Source: Gammaproteobacteria bacterium
GTDB taxonomy: Bacteria; Pseudomonadota; Gammaproteobacteria; Steroidobacterales; Steroidobacteraceae
NCBI GenBank assembly: GCA_030830595.1
Contig: JAURMS010000018.1
Location: 1 to 38,312, forward strand
Length of the DNA: 38,312 nucleotides
Reading direction: 5' to 3'
Shown here: one piece after another, positions 3,674 to 32,468 of the stretch
How positions within the stretch are numbered: position 1 is the first letter of the stretch
Layout: each line of letters starts with the position of its first letter
Notes under the pieces: model-generated
What the model saw: the letters and a program-made list of their open reading frames with translations, nothing else
Database searches by the model: none
Told to the model about the DNA's origin: nothing
Program-made: the position numbers and the translations under genes

Positions 3674-5205
3674 AGACGAGCCAGGCTGCCGCCGTCCGCA
3701 CCGACTGGATCATGTTCGGCGCCACCGTCGCGGTCATCGCGGGCGCTTGCCTGCCATTGGTTCTGTTTCGCGAGCAGGCCGGGCCGTGGGTGACTGCCGC
3801 ATACGACGTGATCACCCGTAATTTTGGCGTGGCTTACCTTTGGTACGGCACCGGCCTGTTGATTTTCCTGCTTTGGCTGGCGGCGAGTCGCTTCGGGTCA
3901 GTCAGGCTTGGTGGTAAGGACGCCGCTCCCGAGTTTGCCACCCGCTCCTGGATTGCCATGCTGTTCTGCGCCGGCATCGGTGCCGGCCTGCTGTACTGGG
4001 CAGTCATCGAGTGGGGCTATTACGTCGATGCGCCGCCACTCGGTGTCGCGCCAGGCAGTACCGAGGCCATCGAGTGGGCGTCGACCTATGGGCTCTTTCA
4101 CTGGGGTCTCACCGGTTGGGCTATTTTCTGCCTGCCCACCCTCGCCATTGCCTATCCCTATCACAATCGCGGCGTTCCCTTCCTCAGGCTCAGCACCGGT
4201 TGTCTGGCTTTCCTGCCGGGAGGTCCTGCCAGCCGTCGAGGGCGTGGACTGGACTTCCTCTACATGATCAACCTGATCGGGGGAACGGGAACCTCGCTCG
4301 GCCTGTCGACCCCGATGATTGCTGCTGGACTGTCACGCCTTTTCGGCATCCAGCACGACTTCATCCTGGAGGTTGCGGTCGTGGTCGGTTGCATAGGCGT
4401 ATTCGGTACCAGTGCCTGGATTGGGTTGCAGGGCGGCTTCAGGCGCATGGCAGACGCCAACATGTATCTTGCGCTGGCCCTGCTGCTGTTCATCTTGCTG
4501 GTGGGTCCGACCGTGTTCATCCTCAAGATGGCCACCAACAGCCTGGGATTGATGGCCCAGAATTTCCTGCGCATGAACACCTGGACCGACCCGATCAGCA
4601 GCCGGGGATTTGTCGAGAGCTGGACCGTGTTCTACTGGGCCTGGTGGATCGCCTACGGTCCCTTCGTAGGCATTTTTGTCACCCGTATCTCCCGGGGTCG
4701 CAGCCTGCGAGAGGTCATCATTGGCATGCTGGCCTTCGGCTCCCTGGGTGCCTGGTTGTTCTTCATGGTGATGGGGAACTACGCCATGCACCTGGACCTT
4801 TCCGGTGCACTGGACTTGCGGAGCCTGGTTAAGCAAGGCGAGGAGGCTCTCGCCATCACCAGTGCCATGGTCAGCCTGCCCGGTGGGTTGCTGGTGCTGG
4901 CAGTGTTCGTTGCGGTGGCGGTCATCTTTCTGGCCACGACCTATGACTCGGCTTCCTACACGCTCGCGTCGGTGGCGACGCGCGAATTGCCTGCAGGCCT
5001 CGATCCGGCCCGCTGGCATCGTGTCTTCTGGGCTTGTGCCCTCGGATTGTTGCCGATCACCTTGATGTTCCTGGAGGGTGGCCTCAAGGTCATCCTGTCC
5101 GCAACCATCGTGGTATCGTTACCGCTGGTCGCCGTGGGAATTCTGATGTGCGTATCCCTGACCAGAATGCTGAGACAGGACTACTCCCTGACCGGGTCGC
5201 GCTGA
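3670..5205 (+). CDS. BCCT family (betaine/carnitine/choline) transporter
   Basis: WTVFYWAWWIAYGPFVGIFVTRISRGRSLREVI signature; multi-TM; ATGA overlap with the preceding esterase stop codon. Confidence 0.94.
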   Translation: MKTSQAAAVRTDWIMFGATVAVIAGACLPLVLFREQAGPWVTAAYDVITRNFGVAYLWYGTGLLIFLLWLAASRFGSVRLGGKDAAPEFATRSWIAMLFCAGIGAGLLYWAVIEWGYYVDAPPLGVAPGSTEAIEWASTYGLFHWGLTGWAIFCLPTLAIAYPYHNRGVPFLRLSTGCLAFLPGGPASRRGRGLDFLYMINLIGGTGTSLGLSTPMIAAGLSRLFGIQHDFILEVAVVVGCIGVFGTSAWIGLQGGFRRMADANMYLALALLLFILLVGPTVFILKMATNSLGLMAQNFLRMNTWTDPISSRGFVESWTVFYWAWWIAYGPFVGIFVTRISRGRSLREVIIGMLAFGSLGAWLFFMVMGNYAMHLDLSGALDLRSLVKQGEEALAITSAMVSLPGGLLVLAVFVAVAVIFLATTYDSASYTLASVATRELPAGLDPARWHRVFWACALGLLPITLMFLEGGLKVILSATIVVSLPLVAVGILMCVSLTRMLRQDYSLTGSR

Positions 5206-18767: not shown

Positions 18768-19661
18768 TCAGGTGCTGGAGGCCTGGTAGATGCCCTCGAT
18801 GGCTGCGTCCAGCGCCGCGTTGAACTCCGCGTCCGTCTGCTGGGCGGTCAGACCTTCGGTGAGGGCACGCGAGAAGCTGGCCACCATCCCGTGCTGGCGC
18901 GCCAAGCGTGCGTTGGCCTCGTCACGGCTGTAACCGCCGGATAGCGCCACCACGCGCAGTACCCGTGGGTGGGCAATGCATTCGGCGTAGTGGTCATTCA
19001 CTTCCGGGAGGGTCAGCTTCAGCATGACCGTGGCGCTGTCGGGCAGCGCATCGAGGTGGGAAAGCAACTCCGCCTTGAGGATTTCCTCGGCCTTGGCCTT
19101 GTTTGGGCACTTGATGTCCACCTCGGGCTCGATGATGGGCACCAAGCCGGCCGCCACGATCTGCATGCCAACCTGAAACTGCTGGTCCACGACCGCCTTG
19201 ATGCGCGCCGCATTGGCCTGCTTGATCACCGAGCGCATCTTGGTGCCGAAGATGCCCTTGGCCTTGGCGCGCGTAAGCAGGTCATCGAGCTCCGGCATCG
19301 GCTTCATCAGCTGCACCCCGTCTGACTCGGCCTCGAGTCCCTTGTCGCCCTTCAGGAAGGGGACCACCTGCTTCACCTGCCAGAGGTAGTCTGCCGCCGG
19401 CTGCCCATTGAACTCGCGGTCCATGGTCGCCTCGAACAGGATCGCTCCCAGGATGCGCCGGCCGTCGAAGGCCGGGCTGCTGACGATGCGGGTGCGCATG
19501 GCGTGCACCAGGTCCATCATCTGCTGCTCGCTGGACCAGGCGTCTTCCTTGATGCCGTAGAGGCCCAGGGCCTTGGGTGTGCTGCCGCCGCTCTGGTCCA
19601 GTGCGGCGATGAAGCCGGCCTGGTCGCGGATCTTGGTCTTTTGTTGGCTGAAGTCATCCAT
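18768..19661 (-). CDS. fda: Fructose-bisphosphate aldolase class I
   Basis: [59 protein letters not shown]. True start at 19661; the ORF-track extension to 20399 is antisense to the next gene. Confidence 0.95.
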
Positions 19662-19727
19662 GGCAGTTCCCCTGGCGCAGAAAGATACGCGGATGTTACC
19701 GGCAAGCGGGGCGGCGGGCCATAATCC

Positions 19728-20504
19728 ATGGCGATGTTCGAGCGAGCCAGACGCCTGATCCTGCTGACCGGCGGCCATCCCTTCCAGCGTGCGGCTTTTC
19801 TGGCCATGCTGCCGGGCGCAGGCTGGGAGGTGGTGGCGCTTCGTCACCCGGCGGCCGAGACGGCGCTGCCGGCCCTGTCGATCGACGAGGGTGACGTCCT
19901 GCTGTGCTACGACATGCCGGGTTACCGATTTACGCCCGGGGCGATGGAGACCCGGCCGCCCTCGGCGGCATTCCAGCGCGCCATCCGGGCGCGTGCCGAG
20001 ACCGGTTGTGGCATGGTGATCATGCATCACGCCCTTGCAGGATGGCCGGATTGGCCGGAGTGGGCCGAGATCGTCGGTGGGCGTTTCCTGTATCGCGCAT
20101 CGACGCTGAGGGGGCGTCGCTGCGGTGACTCCGGCTACCTGCCGGCGGCGACCTATCAGGCCCACGTTGCAGGGGACCATCCGGTCACTGCGGGGCTGCC
20201 GATGAGCTTCGAGCTGACCGACGAACTCTATTTGGCCGAGGTGTTCGAGGACCAGGTTGAGCCCCTGCTGGTCACCGATTTCGACCTTGCTTCGCCAGGG
20301 TTCTGCTCCGCGGCCGCTGCGGTCGGGGTGGCCTCGTCCGAGACCTGGGACCGGCCGCAAGGCAGCCGGCTCCTGGCCTGGACGCAGGTGTATCGTCATG
20401 CGCGGGTGGTGACCCTGCAGCCCGGTGACGGCCCGTCGGCCTATGCGAATCCCTGCCTGCGACGTCTGCTGGCCCAGGCTTTGGACTGGGCGGGGCGGTC
20501 ATGA
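19728..20504 (+). CDS. ThuA-like domain protein
   Basis: [61 protein letters not shown] pattern. Confidence 0.75.
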
Positions 20505-22688: not shown

Positions 22689-23330
22689 TCAGGCGATGCG
22701 GGCGAGGCCGCTTTCGCGTGCGTAAAGCACCAGCTCTACCCGGTTCGACACCTTGAGCTTGCCGTAGATCGATGCTAAATAGTTTTTGACGGTCTGCTCA
22801 CCGAGTCCGAGTTCGCTGGCGATTTCCTTGTTGCTGGCGCCCTTCAGCAGTACCAGCACGATGTCCCGTTCACGCGGCGTCAGGCTGTCCTCGCTCGGCG
22901 TGGGGGCAGACTTGTCGATGGTGGCCAGTGCCTGCAGCAGGTCGCGTACTTCACCCCGGCCCAGCCAGAATTCGCCCTTCATGACGGTGCGCAGGGCCTT
23001 CAGCAGGAGCTTGGGGGGACAGTCGTGGGCGATGGTGCCCTTGAGTCCGAGCCTCAAGGCGGTGAGCAGCGTGGCTTGCTCGACCTCATCACTGAGCAGC
23101 AGGGTGCGGGTGTCGATTCCAGAGCCGATGATGTCCCTGAGCGCGGCCAGCCCGCCGCCGGGTAAGTCGGGATCCAGGAGCAGCACGTCGGGCGGGTCGG
23201 TAGAGACCAACTGGACCACCTCATCACGTGTGGCGGCCTCGCCGATGCAGCGCACGCCATCTTCTGCCTCGAGCAGCATGCGCAGCCCGGCACGATAGAT
23301 GGCGCGTTCCGTGGCGATCATCACTCGCAT
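22689..23330 (-). CDS. LuxR/NarL-family response regulator, orphan, degenerate receiver
   Basis: Receiver-like domain with D53 (LLLDPDLPGG) and C-terminal GerE HTH (LTPRERDIVLVLLKGASNKEIASELGLGEQTVKNYLASIYGKLKVSNRVELVLYA). Confidence 0.92.
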   Translation of the reverse strand: MRVMIATERAIYRAGLRMLLEAEDGVRCIGEAATRDEVVQLVSTDPPDVLLLDPDLPGGGLAALRDIIGSGIDTRTLLLSDEVEQATLLTALRLGLKGTIAHDCPPKLLLKALRTVMKGEFWLGRGEVRDLLQALATIDKSAPTPSEDSLTPRERDIVLVLLKGASNKEIASELGLGEQTVKNYLASIYGKLKVSNRVELVLYARESGLARIA

Positions 23331-23422
23331 TGATTATGTAAATCCTTTGTTTCCGCTCCAAAGCACGCTCGCAGTGTAGTGAGGGTGCATTCATAAAAAC
23401 TGCGGACTGGTTCACAGAAAGC

Positions 23423-23473
23423 GGTACCGAAGTACCAAGCTCCCGGTACTTGACGGCGATTTAACCAAGTACC
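23423..23473 (+). promoter_or_regulatory. GTAC-rich operator-like module upstream of secreted protein A
   Basis: Four GTAC tetramers within 49 bp; GGTAC-CGAA-GTACC inverted repeat; GGTACTTG (23445-23452) and CAAGTACC (23466-23473) perfect 8-bp inverted repeat; 40-bp core shared with 24333-24372. Confidence 0.65.
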
Positions 23474-23576
23474 TGTGAGGCAGACACTGTCCCCAAGGTT
23501 TGTAGCCACGCCGATGGGGTGCGGAAAGTGGACCAGATCGGTGTTGCAGGCTTTTAACTTACTTGGAGCAAATGCG

Positions 23577-24185
23577 ATGACCAAGAATCTGTTCACAGCG
23601 CCCGTGCTGACAATGGCCGCGATGGCGTTGATGTCCTCTGTAGCCGTAGCGGGCAAGCCGGACAGCAGCGGTGGCGGAAAAGGGGGAAACAAGGGCGGCG
23701 GCGATACTGGCTCGTCTCCTGCGAGCCTGGCGCTCACGGCTGCTTTATCCGGCAATATCGGGTATATCACTTGTTCGGTGACGGGTGGGGGCTTTGAACC
23801 GCGCCAGTACGTCTATCTGCGGTGCGCCGGTGATGCTACCTCGCTCACCGCTGTATGGGGCTGCCAGAACAAGACGGATAACACCTGGGATGTTGAGTCC
23901 TGGTCGCCCAGTTCAGGAGCGTTTTTACCCCCTAGGGTCCGTGTAACCGCAAACCGGAAGGGATCGGCTACCGCTACGACGGCGCCGTATTCATTACCGC
24001 AAGATCCAACTGGCACCGAAGCGCTGCAGACCCAGTGCACAAACAATGGCGGCGAATGGCGGGTGTGTTCAGTGACAGCTGAAAGGGTCACGGCCAAATG
24101 GGAAGACGCTAGCGGCAACATGATCGGCACCGCGATCCCTGTGCAAGACACTCTTTACGCAAACGGATGTTCCGAAGCAATGTAG
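23577..24185 (+). CDS. Small secreted protein A, Gly-rich N-terminus, CxVTGxGF motif
   Basis: Signal peptide MTKNLFTAPVLTMAAMALMSSVAVA, then GGGKGGNKGGGD linker, then CSVTGGGFEPRQYVYLRC. ATG 23577 preferred over 23475, which would put the conserved module at its 5' edge. Confidence 0.8.
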   Translation: MTKNLFTAPVLTMAAMALMSSVAVAGKPDSSGGGKGGNKGGGDTGSSPASLALTAALSGNIGYITCSVTGGGFEPRQYVYLRCAGDATSLTAVWGCQNKTDNTWDVESWSPSSGAFLPPRVRVTANRKGSATATTAPYSLPQDPTGTEALQTQCTNNGGEWRVCSVTAERVTAKWEDASGNMIGTAIPVQDTLYANGCSEAM

Positions 24186-24216
24186 AACGTACCAGGGAGA
24201 GACGCTGTCTTGACAT

Positions 24217-24250
24217 ACGGCCCGGGAGAAATCCCGGGCCGTTTTGTTTT
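24217..24250 (+). terminator. Rho-independent terminator
   Basis: ACGGCCCGGGA-GAAA-TCCCGGGCCGT perfect 11-bp stem followed by TTTGTTTT. Confidence 0.93.
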
Positions 24251-24332
24251 GCCTCCGAAGAATACGCAGAAAAACCCGGTCGGAGAAGCTTCGCTAGGTC
24301 ATGCGAGAACTGTGCAGATTGCCACGGCATTT

Positions 24333-24372
24333 GTTACCTTCGTACTGGGACTCAAGTACTTGGCGGTGATTT
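24333..24372 (+). promoter_or_regulatory. Second copy of the GTAC module upstream of secreted protein B
   Basis: GTTACCTTCGTACTGGGACTCAAGTACTTGGCGGTGATTT, 26/40 ungapped identity to 23423-23462; includes perfect palindrome CAAGTACTTG. Confidence 0.65.
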
Positions 24373-24480: not shown

Positions 24481-25119
24481 ATGCCCAAGTTCAACAAGGC
24501 GCCACTGGCTGGTCTGGTGGCAATGGTGCTGGCTTCTTCGGCTGCATTTGCCAAGGGCCCTCCGGTCAAGCCGACTGCGGTGACCGGCTCGCTTTCGATC
24601 GATTCAGCCATGATGACCGCCGGTTGCGCGGTGAGCGGCAGCGGCTTCGCTGCCGACTCCGAAGTGCTGGCTCAGTGCGATTCCGCCAAGATCAGCCAGC
24701 GCTATGTCTGCGTCGCCCGCTACCAGGCTGTGACCAAGGTGAAGGGCCAGTTGACCACGGTCGACGTGGTTGAATACAGCGCGGACTTTCAGACCGTGAT
24801 TTCCAGCGACCTGGCTGCCAACGGCGTCGCCACGGCCAATAAGCGCGGCAATTTCGGCTGGTCCAGCGGGGTGCTGAACGGCCCGACCCAGGACGACGTG
24901 TCCGCTGCCCTTGTTGCCCTGAACTGCGATTCGCTGGATCGCGGCGAGACCAAGGAGAAGGGCGTGACCCTGCCAGCCGCGGACTTCAGTGCTGAACTCT
25001 GCGAGTTCTCGGTGTCCGATGCGGCGGTGAGGGCGAGCGGCCTCGATGCCAACAGTGTCGCGGTGGCCCCAACTGCCATGGCGGTCGGTGCCTCGGTGAA
25101 CTACTGCGGCGGTAACTAA
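24481..25119 (+). CDS. Small secreted protein B, CxVSGxGF motif, related to protein A
   Basis: Signal peptide MPKFNKAPLAGLVAMVLASSAAFA; CAVSGSGFAADSEVLAQC has the same 18-residue spacing as protein A. Confidence 0.82.
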   Translation: MPKFNKAPLAGLVAMVLASSAAFAKGPPVKPTAVTGSLSIDSAMMTAGCAVSGSGFAADSEVLAQCDSAKISQRYVCVARYQAVTKVKGQLTTVDVVEYSADFQTVISSDLAANGVATANKRGNFGWSSGVLNGPTQDDVSAALVALNCDSLDRGETKEKGVTLPAADFSAELCEFSVSDAAVRASGLDANSVAVAPTAMAVGASVNYCGGN

Positions 25120-25148
25120 GCCGACTCGACCAGGGTACTGCCATGATG

Positions 25149-25177
25149 CGGGGCGCCTACGGGCGCCCCGTTTTTTT
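25149..25177 (+). terminator. Rho-independent terminator
   Basis: CGGGGCGCC-TACG-GGCGCCCCG perfect 9-bp stem followed by seven T. Confidence 0.95.
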
Positions 25178-25202: not shown

Positions 25203-27113
25203 TCAGGGCCTGACGATCTCGAACCAGAACCCGGGTTCTTCCAGCAGGCCGAAAAAGCCCAACACGAGGGTTGGATTTCCATCTATCGAGGCACTGCCTT
25301 CCTGCAGCAATTGCGGGAGGGTCTTGGCGCGCGTGTTGAGGGCGATCAGCGCGTCGCTGGTGATTTTGAAAGTAGGCGCAGCGCCTGAGCCGACGCCCAT
25401 GCGGTGATGCAGTGCCCCATTGCTCACCAGCAGGAGCGCTCGCTGGCCCGTGTCGGACACCACGAAGTTGAACTCCCGATCCTGGGCGGCCGCTGCGGGG
25501 CCGTTGAGTCGCACCGCAAGCAGGTCGAAGAACAGGTCCAGTGGCAGGGCGCGAATGAAGTCCGCGGAGGCCGGGCGGGTTGTGTCGAGTGGCGTAATGC
25601 CCTGCCTGAGCTCGCTGGCGCCCGTCAGGTAGAAATTGCGCCAGGGCCCGCTTTCGGCTGATTCTCCAAGGCGGGTGTAGATCAGGGCAAGCAGTTCGCT
25701 CGCCTCCTGGTTATCCGGCTCCGCAAACACCACGTGGCTGAGCGCCGTGGCGGCGAAGCGGTAGTCGCCGAGCTCATAATCTTCGCGGGCCTTGGCCAGC
25801 ACCCGGTCGGCGCCGCCCATGTACTGCACGAACTTGCGTCCGGCTTCCACAGGCCCCAGAGGGTCCAGGTTGGCCGGGTTGCCGTCGAAGTATCCCAGGT
25901 ACAACTGGTACTGCGCCTTGGCACTGTGGCTGACCGTGCCGTAGTAGCCGCGGTTGTAGAACTCGTTGGCCAGGCCTGGGGGCAGCTGCAGCAGTTCGGG
26001 AATCTCATGCAGGGTGTGGCCCTGATTGGCCAGCCTCAGCGTCTGGTCGTGGAGGTAGCGATACAGGTCGCGCTGGTCGCGCCAGAACTCGCGAATCTCC
26101 TCGGTACCCCAGGTTGGCCAATGGTGTGAGCCGAAGGACACATCGGTGCGTTCACCGTAGGCGACGATGGCCTCGTCGATGTAGCGGCTCCAGAGCCGAC
26201 CGTCGCGCACCTTTGCACCGCGCGGCGTATAGAGATTGTGCAGCGTACGGTTGATGATTTCGGCCTGGCAGAAGGCCCGAAACTGCGGCAGGTAGAACAT
26301 GAACTCGTTGGGCGCCTCGGCTTCCAGGGCCAGGATGAATTCCATCTCGACCCCGTCCAGCGTGAGAGTCTGGCCTGTGCGATCCACCTCGATCGTGGGT
26401 TGCAGCATCCCGGGCTCGCCGGTGGAAATCGCCTGCCCCAGGCCCACGCCCACCTGTCCGGTGGCGGAGCGCGGCAGCAGGGAGCCAAACATGTAGGCGG
26501 CGCGACGGGCCATGGCGTTGCCGGCCAGCAGGTTCTCGCTCACGGCTTCACGGACAAAGCCCTTGGGCGCAACAATCTCGACCCGTCCGGACGTGATCTC
26601 TTCCTCAGTGACGATGCCGCGTACACCGCCAAAGTGATCCAGGTGGGAGTGGGTGAACACCACGGCGGTGACTGGCCGCGTGCCCAGGTGCTGGTTGACC
26701 AACTCCAGCGCGCGCCGTGCGGTTTCGCGCGTGAGCAAGGGATCGATGACCACCCAGCCGCGTTCCCCCCGGATGAAGGTCACATTCGAGAGGTCAAAAC
26801 CCCGTACCTGATAGATGCCATCGAGCACCTCATAGAGGCCATGCTTCGCATTGAGCTGGCCCTGACGCCAAAGACTCGGATGGACGGTAGGCGGTGCTGC
26901 CCCCTGCAGGAAGTCATAGGCCCCGTAGTCGTACACGACCGTGCCTGCCGCGTTGGTGATGGTGCCATCGGCAAAGCTAGCGATGAACCCCCGCTCAGCG
27001 GCCTCGAAGTCGCGGCGGTCGGTGTAGTTGAGGGTGGTGGCTGCGGAAGTTGCAAGGGTCGAACAGAGGGCGGCGAGGCCCAAGGCAGCGACGGCATAGG
27101 GCAGGGACCTCAT
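25203..27113 (-). CDS. SdsA1-type alkylsulfatase (MBL fold, dimerisation and SCP2-like C-terminal domains), secreted
   Basis: [15 protein letters not shown] zinc motif; [30 protein letters not shown]; signal peptide from ATG 27113. Confidence 0.92.
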
Positions 27114-28711
27114 GGTGACTCGAGCTCCTCGCGGATCATATGTGCGCATTTCTCGCCGATCATGATGCAGGTGGCGTTGGTATTGCCGGAGACCAGGTTA
27201 GGCATGATGGAGCCGTCGGCAACTCGAAGGCCCTTTAGCCCATGCACGCGCAGGCGTGCGTCCACCACCGCGAGCGGATCGCTGCCCATCTTGCAGGTGC
27301 CTACCGGATGATATTGGGTGTCGGCGCGGGCGCGGATGTCGGCACGCAGCGCCGCTTCATCGCTTGCCTCGCTGGCATAGTAGGGTCGACCGCGGACGTC
27401 GTCGAAGGCGGCGGATTGCAGCAGTTGCTGTGCGATACGCGTCCCGGCAACCAGCTTGTCGAGGTCGCCGTCGTCGGCCAGGAAGGCGGGATCGATGGCC
27501 GGCGCAGCAGTGGGATTTGCGCTCGTGAGCCACAGGCGACCCCGACTCTTCGGCCGAATGACGCTGACGTGCAGGCTGTAGCCGTGACCCGTATGCAGCT
27601 TGCGACCATGGTCGTCGACCACTGCCCGCACGAAGATCAGCTGGATGTCCGGTGAGGGTTCTGTCGGATCGACGTAGAGAAACGCGCCACTTTCGGCCAG
27701 GTTCGAGGCCAGAATGCCCTGTCGGTGCCGACGGTAGCGGCGCAACTCGTCGGGAAAACGGAACGTCCCTCGCAGGGAAATGCCGATGTTGTCAGCCAGG
27801 TCCGAGTCGTAGGAAAGGACGTAATCCGGATGGTCCTGCAGGTTTTCGCCCACCCCGGGCAAGTCGTGCACCTGCCGAATTCCGTGGGGCACGAGCTTGT
27901 CGGCAGGACCGATCCCTGAGAGCAGCAGCAACTGTGGCGACCCGAAGGCCCCGGCAGACAGGATGACTTCCCGCCTTGCCCGTAGAACGCGCCGTCCACT
28001 TCGCTCCTTGATGTGCACCCCGCTGGCTGTCCCGTGCTCGATGAGCAACCGCTCTGTCAGGGTGTTGGTCAGCACCTTGAGGTTGGGGCGATCCATCACT
28101 GGATCCAGGAAGGCCCGGGCAGCAGACCAGCGCTCGCCATTCTTGTGGGTGACCTCGTAGTACCCGTAGCCTTCCTGTGCAGCGCCGTTGAAGTCCGGAT
28201 TGGGCGGCAGGCCCAGTTCGCCGCATGCAGCGAAGAAGCGCTCGTTGATCGAGCCGGGGGTGGTGACCGGCGCGACGTTCAGTTCGCCGTTCGTACCGTG
28301 GAAAGCATCACCGCCCGCCTCGCGATGTTCGCAGCTTCTGAAGAAGGGCAGCACCTCGTCGTAGGACCAGCCCGGATTGCCGAGGGCCGCCCAGGCGTCG
28401 TAGTCCTGCCTGGCGCCGCGGATGTAAATCATGGCGTTGATGCTGGAACTGCCACCGAGGCATTTGCCGCGTGGCTGGTAGCCGCGTCGGCCATTGAGCC
28501 CGGCCTGGGGCACCGTTTCGAAGGACCAGTTGCGCTTGCGTGATATCAGGTTGTAGAGCACGGCACACGGCACCCAGACCGACCAGTGCCTGTGGGTGTC
28601 GCCCGCCTCGATCAGGCAGACCGAAACGTCCGGGTCCGCACTGAGTCGGTTGGCGAGGATGCAGCCGGCGCTGCCGGCCCCGACGATGATGTAGTCGAAG
28701 GACGAGTCCAT
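27110..28711 (-). CDS. GMC family FAD-dependent alcohol/choline dehydrogenase
   Basis: [73 protein letters not shown]. Confidence 0.95.
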
Positions 28712-28733
28712 CCGTAGGCGCTCTCCGTCGGGA

Positions 28734-29498
28734 TCAGAAGTTGGACACCCCCAGGCCGATGCCTCCATCCACCTCCAGCGCCACGCCCGTCACCCATTCC
28801 GCGCGGATCAGGTATTCGATGCCCTCCGCAACCTCGCGCCCGGTGCCGATACGCCCCAGCGCATGCAGGCCAGCGACCGCGTCGTAGCGGGCCTGGGCCT
28901 GGTCCTCGCTGAACAGGCCGGCACGCAGGTTGAGTTCGGTATACACGGCACCGGGCAGGATGCACCCGACCCGGATCTGCCTGGGGCCGAGCTCCGCCGC
29001 CATCACCCGCGTCAGGCCCTCGACCGCGGCCTTGGTAGTCGCGTAGGGCGATGCCCCGGGAAACGCGCGGCGGGTGTGGGTCGAGCCAATGAAGATGATC
29101 GCACCCTGGGTCTTGGCCAGTTCCGGCACGGCGAGGCTCGAGAGCATCATGGCCGAGATGACGTTCGTGTCGAAGGCTTCCTTGAGAAATTCCTCGGTGT
29201 AGCCATCCGCGGGCTGCCGGTACATGTTCGCAGCATTATTGACCAGCGCGTCGAGCCGGCCACCGCCGTGCTCGACAGCCACAGCCAGCATGGCCTGGCG
29301 ATCGGCCTGGTTGCGTACATCACCGACTACGGTCCGGCAGGCCGGCCCGATGGCTTCGGCCACGGCAGCGAGCTTGTCGGCCCGCCTTCCGCTGATGGTG
29401 ACCCGGGCCCCACCCTCAGCGAGGAGTTTCGCGCAGTCCTCCCCAATGCCGGACCCGCCGCCGGTGATGAGCACCGACATGCCCTTGATCGCCCTCAT
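28734..29498 (-). CDS. SDR family oxidoreductase
   Basis: [25 protein letters not shown]. Confidence 0.92.
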
Positions 29499-30613
29499 TG
29501 CCTGAGCCCCGCCTGGCGCATCAGCGGCAGGATCTTTTCGCCGAACTGGGTCAGGCCTTCCTCGTAGTTGACCCAGCTCAGGGTGAGCCCGTCGAGCCCT
29601 GCCTTGGAAAAGGCCAGCAGGCCGTCCACGATCTGCTCGGCCGTGCCGACCAGCGGGATGGCCCCGTAACCGGCAATCAGGTTGGCGGCCATGGATTCCC
29701 AGCCGTCGCCGAGTGCGCTCTGCGAATTGGGTACCAGCACGTCCAACAGGTTGCGCACGCCCTCCCAGTCGCCGCGCTCGTACACGTATTCACGCACGAA
29801 GTCCTGGGCTTCCTTTTCGGTCTCGCGACAGACGATGTAGGCCTGCCCGAAGACCTGCATGGTCCGGCCAAATTTTTCGCGAGCGAGCTTGCGACCCCGG
29901 GCCGCGACTTCGCCGCAGGCAGCGACGTCCTTGGCGACCACGAAGTTGAAATCGGCGTGCGCAGCGGCAAATTCCTGGCCGCGGGCGCTGTTGCCGGCGC
30001 TCATCAGGGCCGGCCACGGTCTCTGGACGGGTTTGGGTTCCGAGTAGCAGCCAGGAGAGGTGAAATGCGGCCCGACGTAATCGAACTCGCCTTCGCGGGT
30101 CCATAACTGCTTGCAGAGCGAGATCCAGTCGTCGGCCACGTCGTAGCGGACATCGTGCTCCTTCTGGGGGATGCCAAACATGGCGATCTCGCGCTCGTTC
30201 CAGCCCGCCACGATGTTGAGGCCGAAGCGTCCGCCCGAGATATGGTCGATGGTGGCCACTTCCTTGGCGGCCCGGACCGGGTGGACGGTGGGCACGTGGA
30301 AGGTCGCAAACACGCCGATTCGCTCCGTCACGGCGGACAGTCCGGCTGCCCAGGTGAAGGTCTCGAAATTGCGGTGGTTGAAATTGACCTTGCCGCCCAT
30401 GCCCTTCCAGCGGGCAACCGGGATGACCGCCTCCAGGCCGAGCGAATCGGCCAGCTTGGCCACCCGCACCGATTCCTGCCATTCGATCTTCAGCGTGTCC
30501 GGGCGGTCCGTCATGGAACAGCCGCTGCTGACGTTCAGCCCGAATACGCCCAACTTCAACTTGTTGGGACTGGCCAGCATCGGATGGCTGGCGTTCTGCG
30601 CGCTCTCACTCAT
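29495..30613 (-). CDS. LLM class flavin-dependent monooxygenase (RutA/SfnG-like group)
   Basis: GGKVNFNHRNFETFTWAAGLSAVTERIGVFATFHVPTVHPVRAAKEVATIDHISGGRFGLNIVAGWNEREIAMFG; AHADFNFVV. Confidence 0.92.
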   Translation of the reverse strand: MSESAQNASHPMLASPNKLKLGVFGLNVSSGCSMTDRPDTLKIEWQESVRVAKLADSLGLEAVIPVARWKGMGGKVNFNHRNFETFTWAAGLSAVTERIGVFATFHVPTVHPVRAAKEVATIDHISGGRFGLNIVAGWNEREIAMFGIPQKEHDVRYDVADDWISLCKQLWTREGEFDYVGPHFTSPGCYSEPKPVQRPWPALMSAGNSARGQEFAAAHADFNFVVAKDVAACGEVAARGRKLAREKFGRTMQVFGQAYIVCRETEKEAQDFVREYVYERGDWEGVRNLLDVLVPNSQSALGDGWESMAANLIAGYGAIPLVGTAEQIVDGLLAFSKAGLDGLTLSWVNYEEGLTQFGEKILPLMRQAGLRQ

Positions 30614-30641
30614 TCGTGACCCCTGACGATTGCGTCCTTCC

Positions 30642-32468
30642 TCAGTTGGCGACAGCTCCCTGGCCGCTGGCCCAGTCGCGTACGGTTTCATGGAGTACAC
30701 CCAGCGGCATGCCCCCGTTCATCAACACTACTTCATGGAATTGCTTCAGGTCGAACGCCTCGCCCAGGAGGTCCTCGGCCTCGGCACGCATGTCGAGGAT
30801 GGCCAGCTGGCCGGTCTTGTAGGCCGTGGCCTGGCCGGGCCACACCACGTAGCGCTCGATCTCGCGGGTGACTTCCTCGGTGGTCATGCCGGTCTTCGCC
30901 ACCATGTAGTCGATCGCCTGTTCCCGGCTCCAGCGCTTGGCGTGCATGCCGGTATCCACGACCAGGCGCACGGCGCGGAACATCTCGGCCTGCAGGCGGC
31001 CGAGGTCGCCCAGCGGGTCAGCGTCGTAGAAGCCCATGTCGGTCTTCGCAATGCGCTCGGAGTACAGTGCCCAGCCCTCCGAATAGGCGCTGAAGGGCGA
31101 CACCTTGCGCAGCAGGGGGACGCCCTCGATCAGCTGTGAGGCAGACAGCTGGAAGTGGTGACCGGGAGCTCCCTCGTGGATCATCAGGGTGGGTAGCGTC
31201 CACTTGGGGTTGTCCGCCGTGTCCTTCTGGTTGATGTAGAAGCGACCGGGACGCGAGCCATCCAGCGCCGGCGAGTTGTAGTAGCCCCCCGGCGAGGAAT
31301 CCTGGGCGTATTCAGGCACTCTGACGATCTCGAGCGGTTGCGGCGGGATGGTGATGAAGAACTGCGGGGCAATCGCCATGACCCGATCGTCGATCGACTC
31401 GAGGTAGTCGATCATCTCGCGCCGCCCCTCGTCGGTGTTCGGGAACTGCTGGGCAGGGTCCTCCATCAGGATCCTCACCCGGGTCGCCAGGTCGCCGTCG
31501 GTGATGCCCTGGGCATCCAGGATCGCCAGCATCTCGGTCTCGATCCGGGCAACCTCGGCCAGGCCAATGTCGTGGATCTCGTCCGCCGTGTAGTCGGTGG
31601 TTGTGTTGGAGCGCAGTGCGGCCTCGTAGATGGCTTCACCCTCCGGAATGCGCCAGATGCCTGCGTCGTGCGATGCGCCAGGCAGCATCTCTTCGAAGAG
31701 TGCAATCATGGCCCGGTAGCCGGGGATGACCTCGGTGTCGACCAGTCGCTCTGCCTCCGCAAGGTAGCGCGCCCTGTCCTCGGCCGCGAGGTCATCCAGT
31801 TTGTCCAGCTTGGGTCCCAGGGTGGTCACCAGCGGATTGGCGGCGGCGCCACCCTCAATGAAGTTCCGCATGCCGGTGAGCGCCTTCTCGATGACGAAGT
31901 CGGGCGGGATGACGCCATGGTCACGATCATCCATGACCCTTTCACGCGTTTCGCGCAGCACCCTGCCGAACTCAGCGACCCGTGACAGGTAGCGTTCGAC
32001 GCTCTTGCGATGCTTGATCACGTGGGTGTCGGTAAGGAACTGAGGCATGTTCACGGTGACCCCGGAGATCTGGTTCACGCGGTAGCCACCGTGCTCGAAA
32101 GCCGCCTGGCGGATCAGGTCGTCCAGGAACCAGGCCGTGATCTTCCAGGTGAGCAATTCCTGACCCTCGAGCCCGTCCGGCCCGTAACGATCGAGCCCTT
32201 CACGAGCCTTACGCAGCTTGGCAAGGCTCTCCTCCTCCTGGGCCTTGGTGTAGTCGGCCAGCTTGCCGCTGTGGAAGTCGAGCGGGGTGTTGTCGATGAA
32301 ACCGAGTGAGCTCAGGATCTCCGGGGAGTCCATGGCCAGCTGCAGGGTGATCTTGTTCACGTAATTGTTGACCCCGACCGGGGTGAACCAGAACCACATC
32401 GAGGCAGCCCCAACGGCCACCAACAGGAGGGCCACTGCGGCCCCGACGAATTTCATGAATGTCTTCAT
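30642..32468 (-). CDS. DUF885 family protein (M1/M32-like putative peptidase), membrane-anchored
   Basis: N-terminal [18 protein letters not shown] (HEGxPGHH) and [10 protein letters not shown] are typical of DUF885. Confidence 0.9.

Follow-up and report, generated by a model that had tools for sequence, protein, structure and literature searches.

A conserved two-copy GTAC module ahead of two secreted-protein genes in a Steroidobacteraceae bacterium, and an adjacent orphan response regulator as its most likely binder

Two neighbouring genes of a gammaproteobacterium of the Steroidobacteraceae are each preceded, at nearly the same distance, by a similar 40-bp sequence bearing two GTAC cores. 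Are these modules control elements, how far does their control extend and which protein would read them? The window, i.e. the whole 38,312-nucleotide stretch that was analysed (contig C63), comes from an assembly of 2.65 Mb in 399 contigs that is 67% complete. The original prediction described the two modules as a shared regulatory element, and every coordinate and repeat that it listed proved correct. The modules (Table 1) are identical at 26 of 40 positions without gaps, their GTAC cores are 14 bp apart in both copies (23432 and 23446; 24342 and 24356), and they end 114 and 108 nt before the start codons at 23577 and 24481, respectively. Module 1 carries the inverted repeats GGTAC-N4-GTACC and GGTACTTG-N13-CAAGTACC, and module 2 contains the palindrome CAAGTACTTG (24353-24362). 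By itself the match between the modules is suggestive and not overwhelming, as 3 of 1000 dinucleotide shuffles of the upstream regions also yielded an ungapped 40-mer pair with at least 26 identities (p about 0.003). In the core of the second unit, GTACTTGRCGGYGATTT, 15 of 17 bases are common to both modules and the other two are transitions. The N4 repeat is also present in module 2 in a weaker form, with one mismatch in each half, while the inverted CAAGTACC arm that follows the second unit in module 1 is absent from module 2. Outside the modules, the in-register matches AACTG (at 23399) and CTGTC (at 23487) are individually weak.

Table 1. Features of the locus, with positions in the window and strand.
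Feature	Positions	Strand	Remarks
Orphan NarL/DosR-type response regulator, GerE output domain, degenerate receiver	22689-23330	-	Candidate binder of the modules
Constrained block: putative operator module 1 with its flanks and some 80 bp of leader downstream	23397-23545	+	135/149 identical to congener G002
Module 1	23423-23462		GGTACCGAAGTACCAAGCTCCCGGTACTTGACGGCGATTT; upstream of gene 1
GGTAC-N4-GTACC inverted repeat, module 1	23423-23436	.	Identical in G002; sole exact match in the source assembly
Variable spacer of constant length, middle of GTAC-N10-GTAC	23437-23444	.	5 of 8 bases differ between source and G002
GGTACTTG-N13-CAAGTACC unit with shared core GTACTTGRCGGYGATTT	23445-23473	+	No difference from G002 over 29 bp
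Gene 1: 202-aa secreted protein	23577-24185	+	Signal peptide by eye; GGAG before the start; no known family
Intrinsic terminator, interval between gene 1 and module 2	24217-24242	+	11-pair stem, then TTTTGTTTT
Module 2	24333-24372	+	GTTACCTTCGTACTGGGACTCAAGTACTTGGCGGTGATTT; has GTTAC-N4-GTACT and CAAGTACTTGGCGGTGATTT
Gene 2: 212-aa secreted protein, probable paralogue of gene 1	24481-25119	+	80% identical partial homologue in G002
Intrinsic terminator 3' of gene 2	25148-25171	+	10-pair stem, then T run

Conservation between species provides stronger evidence. Five congeners were compared and the locus was found in one of them, G002; the regulator and the secreted-protein genes were not found in the other four. 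The comparison with G002 covers module 1, 31 codons at the start of gene 1 (to the contig end), most of gene 2 (on another contig) and the regulator. The G002 contigs end at module 2, and the conservation evidence concerns copy 1 in two species. Both of these contigs (C108, ending at 5121, and C76, ending at 5063) break inside the secreted-gene pair and leave its middle unassembled, which could reflect strain variation in the pair. The two species differ at 51 (41%) of the 125 fourfold sites that could be compared in the regulator gene, and unconstrained DNA would therefore be expected near 59% identity. The block around module 1 is 91% identical (binomial p about 1e-17 against 59%), and identity drops sharply on either side of it, to 3/12 upstream and 15/34 downstream. 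This excess over expectation and its sharp edges indicate that the block is functional as DNA or RNA. Its conservation is similar to that of the more conserved coding sequence in this alignment, and not higher.

The differences within the block are also unevenly placed, since five of the 14 fall within the 8 bp at the centre of GTAC-N10-GTAC, the length of which is constant in three copies (both source copies and copy 1 of G002). A fast-changing centre between unchanged sides, at constant length, is the pattern of two contact units held apart by a fixed-length spacer. The likeness of the modules might instead be the functionless, neutral remnant of a tandem duplication of the gene pair, given that the genes look paralogous and their upstream regions may have a common ancestry. 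We regard this as very improbable, because at about 27% protein identity unconstrained DNA should be saturated with changes, and because copy 1 shows hardly any change in G002 despite the divergence at fourfold sites.

The block does not end with module 1. The stretch from 23463 to 23545 is identical at 75 of 83 positions in G002, which is more than a promoter needs, and operators alone do not account for this constraint. The constrained sequence could thus be read as a 5' leader that acts as a structured RNA, either in the manner of a riboswitch or by binding a protein, with the inverted repeats as RNA hairpins. Folding predictions for both species give the two GTAC hairpins and, at about 23511-23541, a third hairpin formed by CCGAU/AUCGG (z of -1.8 and -2.1). 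The bases of this last hairpin that differ between the species occupy unpaired positions. However, the modules gave no Rfam match at gathering or relaxed thresholds, in the outer stem two A-U pairs of the source become A-C in G002 with no compensatory change seen, and module 2, which is without the CAAGTACC arm, folds no better than shuffled sequences (z of +0.54). What is kept between the modules is therefore shared sequence and not shared RNA structure, and we consider it doubtful that the block acts chiefly as RNA. The conserved 80 bp past module 1 could nevertheless form a leader element additional to the operator. A small upstream open reading frame in this leader (ATG at 23514) shares the reading frame of gene 1 in the source; in G002 a stop and a 2-nt indel lie between the two, and the small frame was rejected as not conserved. 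From this start, G002 has a 19-codon upstream frame (L068, about 4964-5023), MGCGQWTKSVNKALTVLQE, that terminates in the ribosome-binding region of gene 1.

The organisation of the genes downstream bears on the role of the second copy. The products of genes 1 and 2 are probably diverged paralogues, to judge from 27% identity over 92 columns (BLASTP, E = 0.004), with a common C-V-G-GF...V...C stretch. Both have an N-terminal signal peptide recognisable by eye. No Pfam or NCBIfam family was recognised for either protein, no convincing relatives outside G002 were found among 217 family genomes, also with a three-row profile, and single-sequence structure prediction of the gene 2 protein was uninformative (pLDDT 33). 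The strong intrinsic terminators that follow gene 1 and gene 2 make them separate transcription units, so that gene 2 needs a promoter of its own, which we would expect at module 2. Further along the window, the locus is adjoined by genes for an alkyl sulfatase, a GMC oxidoreductase, a short-chain dehydrogenase and a luciferase-like monooxygenase (25203-30700, minus strand), a run that looks like a degradation operon. On the other side, the 543-codon open frame at 18768-20399 (minus strand) matches fructose bisphosphate aldolase (PRK05377) only over residues 251-542, and its first 250 codons are either additional open frame or an extension of an unusual kind.

As to the promoter itself, TTGACG and TTGGCG in the 3' part of the modules had been put forward as -35 elements. 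The resemblance is confined to the hexamer, with no sigma-70 -10 element found, and no site between 23300 and 25200 passed a sigma-70 consensus scan with -35 and -10 hexamers 16-18 bp apart. The stretch 23473-23478, in which the -10 element would be expected, is not common to module 2 and changes from CTGTGA to CCGCGA in G002. A FliA-like reading of GCCGAT at 23510 was also rejected, as its -35 part does not fit. The weak, activator-dependent promoter suggested by the original prediction is possible.

The modules look like a local control element and not the mark of a genome-wide regulon. The genome-wide scan that had been proposed returned exactly two occurrences of GTACN10GTACTTGRCGG in the 67%-complete source assembly, and all six of the inspected near matches (one or two mismatches) lie in long open frames. 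In 217 family genomes, a sequence profile built from the three 104-bp leaders singled out only the three known copies (E of 2e-23 or lower), the next matches being at 4e-4 and weaker (per genome), with those looked at sitting in open frames. As a third of the source genome is missing, a few more sites may exist. The proposal of a regulatory module ahead of the two genes is thus backed by the conservation of copy 1 in G002, by the separate terminators and by the uniqueness of the sites.

The candidate binder is encoded divergently next door. The regulator has the architecture of the NarL/FixJ (LuxR-type) family, with an N-terminal receiver (Pfam Response_reg, 6.2e-10, 39.7 bits against a cut-off of 30.2) and a C-terminal GerE helix-turn-helix (Pfam, 4.5e-19, 68.3 bits against a cut-off of 23.5). 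Among proteins of solved structure, NarL, DesR and DevR are closest to it, and NarL provides both the closest structure and the closest NCBIfam model. Aligned to NarL, the receiver has TE in place of the acidic pair DD and His in place of Lys; the Asp of LLD is kept, and a Ser is kept in the source and replaced by Asn in G002. The full set of residues associated with phosphorylation competence (acidic pair, Asp, Thr/Ser, Lys) is therefore not present, and the loss of the acidic pair, the Lys and, in G002, the Ser/Thr makes signalling by phosphorylation doubtful, though the Asp is kept. The protein sequence is 98% identical between the source and G002 despite the 41% difference at fourfold sites. 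No orthologues were found beyond G002 in samples of the family, order and class; the best other homologues in the family are 33-38% identical, and their loci showed no G-N-TAC-N4-GTA-N-C repeat.

Comparison with known systems makes it plausible that this regulator controls the modules. In DosR/DevR of Mycobacterium tuberculosis, Lys179, Lys182 and Asn183 contact the bases (PMC4082495) of a box, TTSGGGACTWWAGTCCCSAA (PMC2275270), whose GGNAC-N4-GTNCC layout is shared by the module 1 repeat. The recognition helix of the regulator, EQTVKNY, aligns with EKTVKNY of DevR and keeps Lys182 and Asn183, with Gln in place of Lys179. The likeness falls short of orthology, as two of the three base-contacting residues are kept and the GGTAC core of module 1 has the geometry of the DosR-type operator GGGAC-N4-GTCCC with a different core base. 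In addition, the DosR regulon comprises about 50 genes, whereas two local targets were found here, and in the present case the receiver is degenerate and Pfam recognised no histidine kinase in those proteins of the window that were scanned. NarL offers a second comparison, through its 7-2-7 sites of inverted TACYNMT-type heptamers 2 bp apart. The TAC-N10-GTA spacing of such sites is found in all three module copies, but the heptamer interiors mostly do not fit. Against an engineered narG site, TACCCCTAAAGGGGTA (PMC4549865), TACCCCGCAACGGGTA of G002 matches at 13 of 16 positions, and copies 1 and 2 of the source at 8 and 7 of 16. Since the inner bases vary freely, recognised NarL heptamers are disfavoured. 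BldM and WhiI of Streptomyces are orphan, atypical response regulators of development (PMC4125116). The present regulator resembles them in being an orphan with an atypical receiver and differs in adjoining two secreted-protein genes, with no wider regulon found.

The modules might instead be operators of another factor, global or unlinked, to which the response regulator is merely a neighbour. A binder acting elsewhere may be encoded anywhere, and the leader near the start of the regulator gene (23340-23399) is poorly conserved between the two species. Against this, a global regulator should have more sites than the exact ones found only here in the assembly, and the regulator and the secreted-protein genes were found or missed together in the genomes of the genus that were compared. 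Another factor appears unlikely to us, although somewhat less so than the leader RNA. The adjacent regulator is favoured by its conservation together with the locus, a suitable recognition helix and the geometry of the box.

We propose that the modules are operators, one ahead of each of the two genes, which encode small secreted proteins and are transcribed separately. Each operator would consist of an inverted repeat of the GGTAC-N4-GTACC type and a GTACTTGRCGGYGATTT unit, at a fixed spacing set by a spacer of free sequence, and the most likely binder would be the orphan regulator. Side by side on the DNA, two dimers would bring RNA polymerase to a weak promoter immediately downstream. The module anatomy, the constraint on copy 1, the local restriction and the separate terminators are directly established; we infer that a protein binds, which protein this is, that it activates and does not repress, and where transcription starts. 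Operators with the adjacent regulator as their likely binder are the best explanation of the locus and probably the correct one. A more elaborate version, in which a phosphorylation-independent pseudo-receiver regulator with a GTAC code of its own serves only its two neighbouring targets and a leader RNA adds a second layer of control, strikes us as a long shot of about the same low standing as the leader RNA on its own.

In summary, the operator module appears to be real, conserved and present in two copies, with the adjacent orphan regulator most likely the protein that works through it. The kind of system is well known; its novelty is a matter of detail and lies in the particular operator, the degenerate receiver and the limitation to two genes for secreted proteins. 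The locus offers a compact, testable set of regulator, operator and targets, with an operator code that can be read against those of DosR and NarL. Within this set, the regulator and the operator block are nearly fixed between the two species, and one target is 80% identical over the part available. If the regulator acts without phosphorylation, it would be a further pseudo-receiver regulator whose target site is defined.
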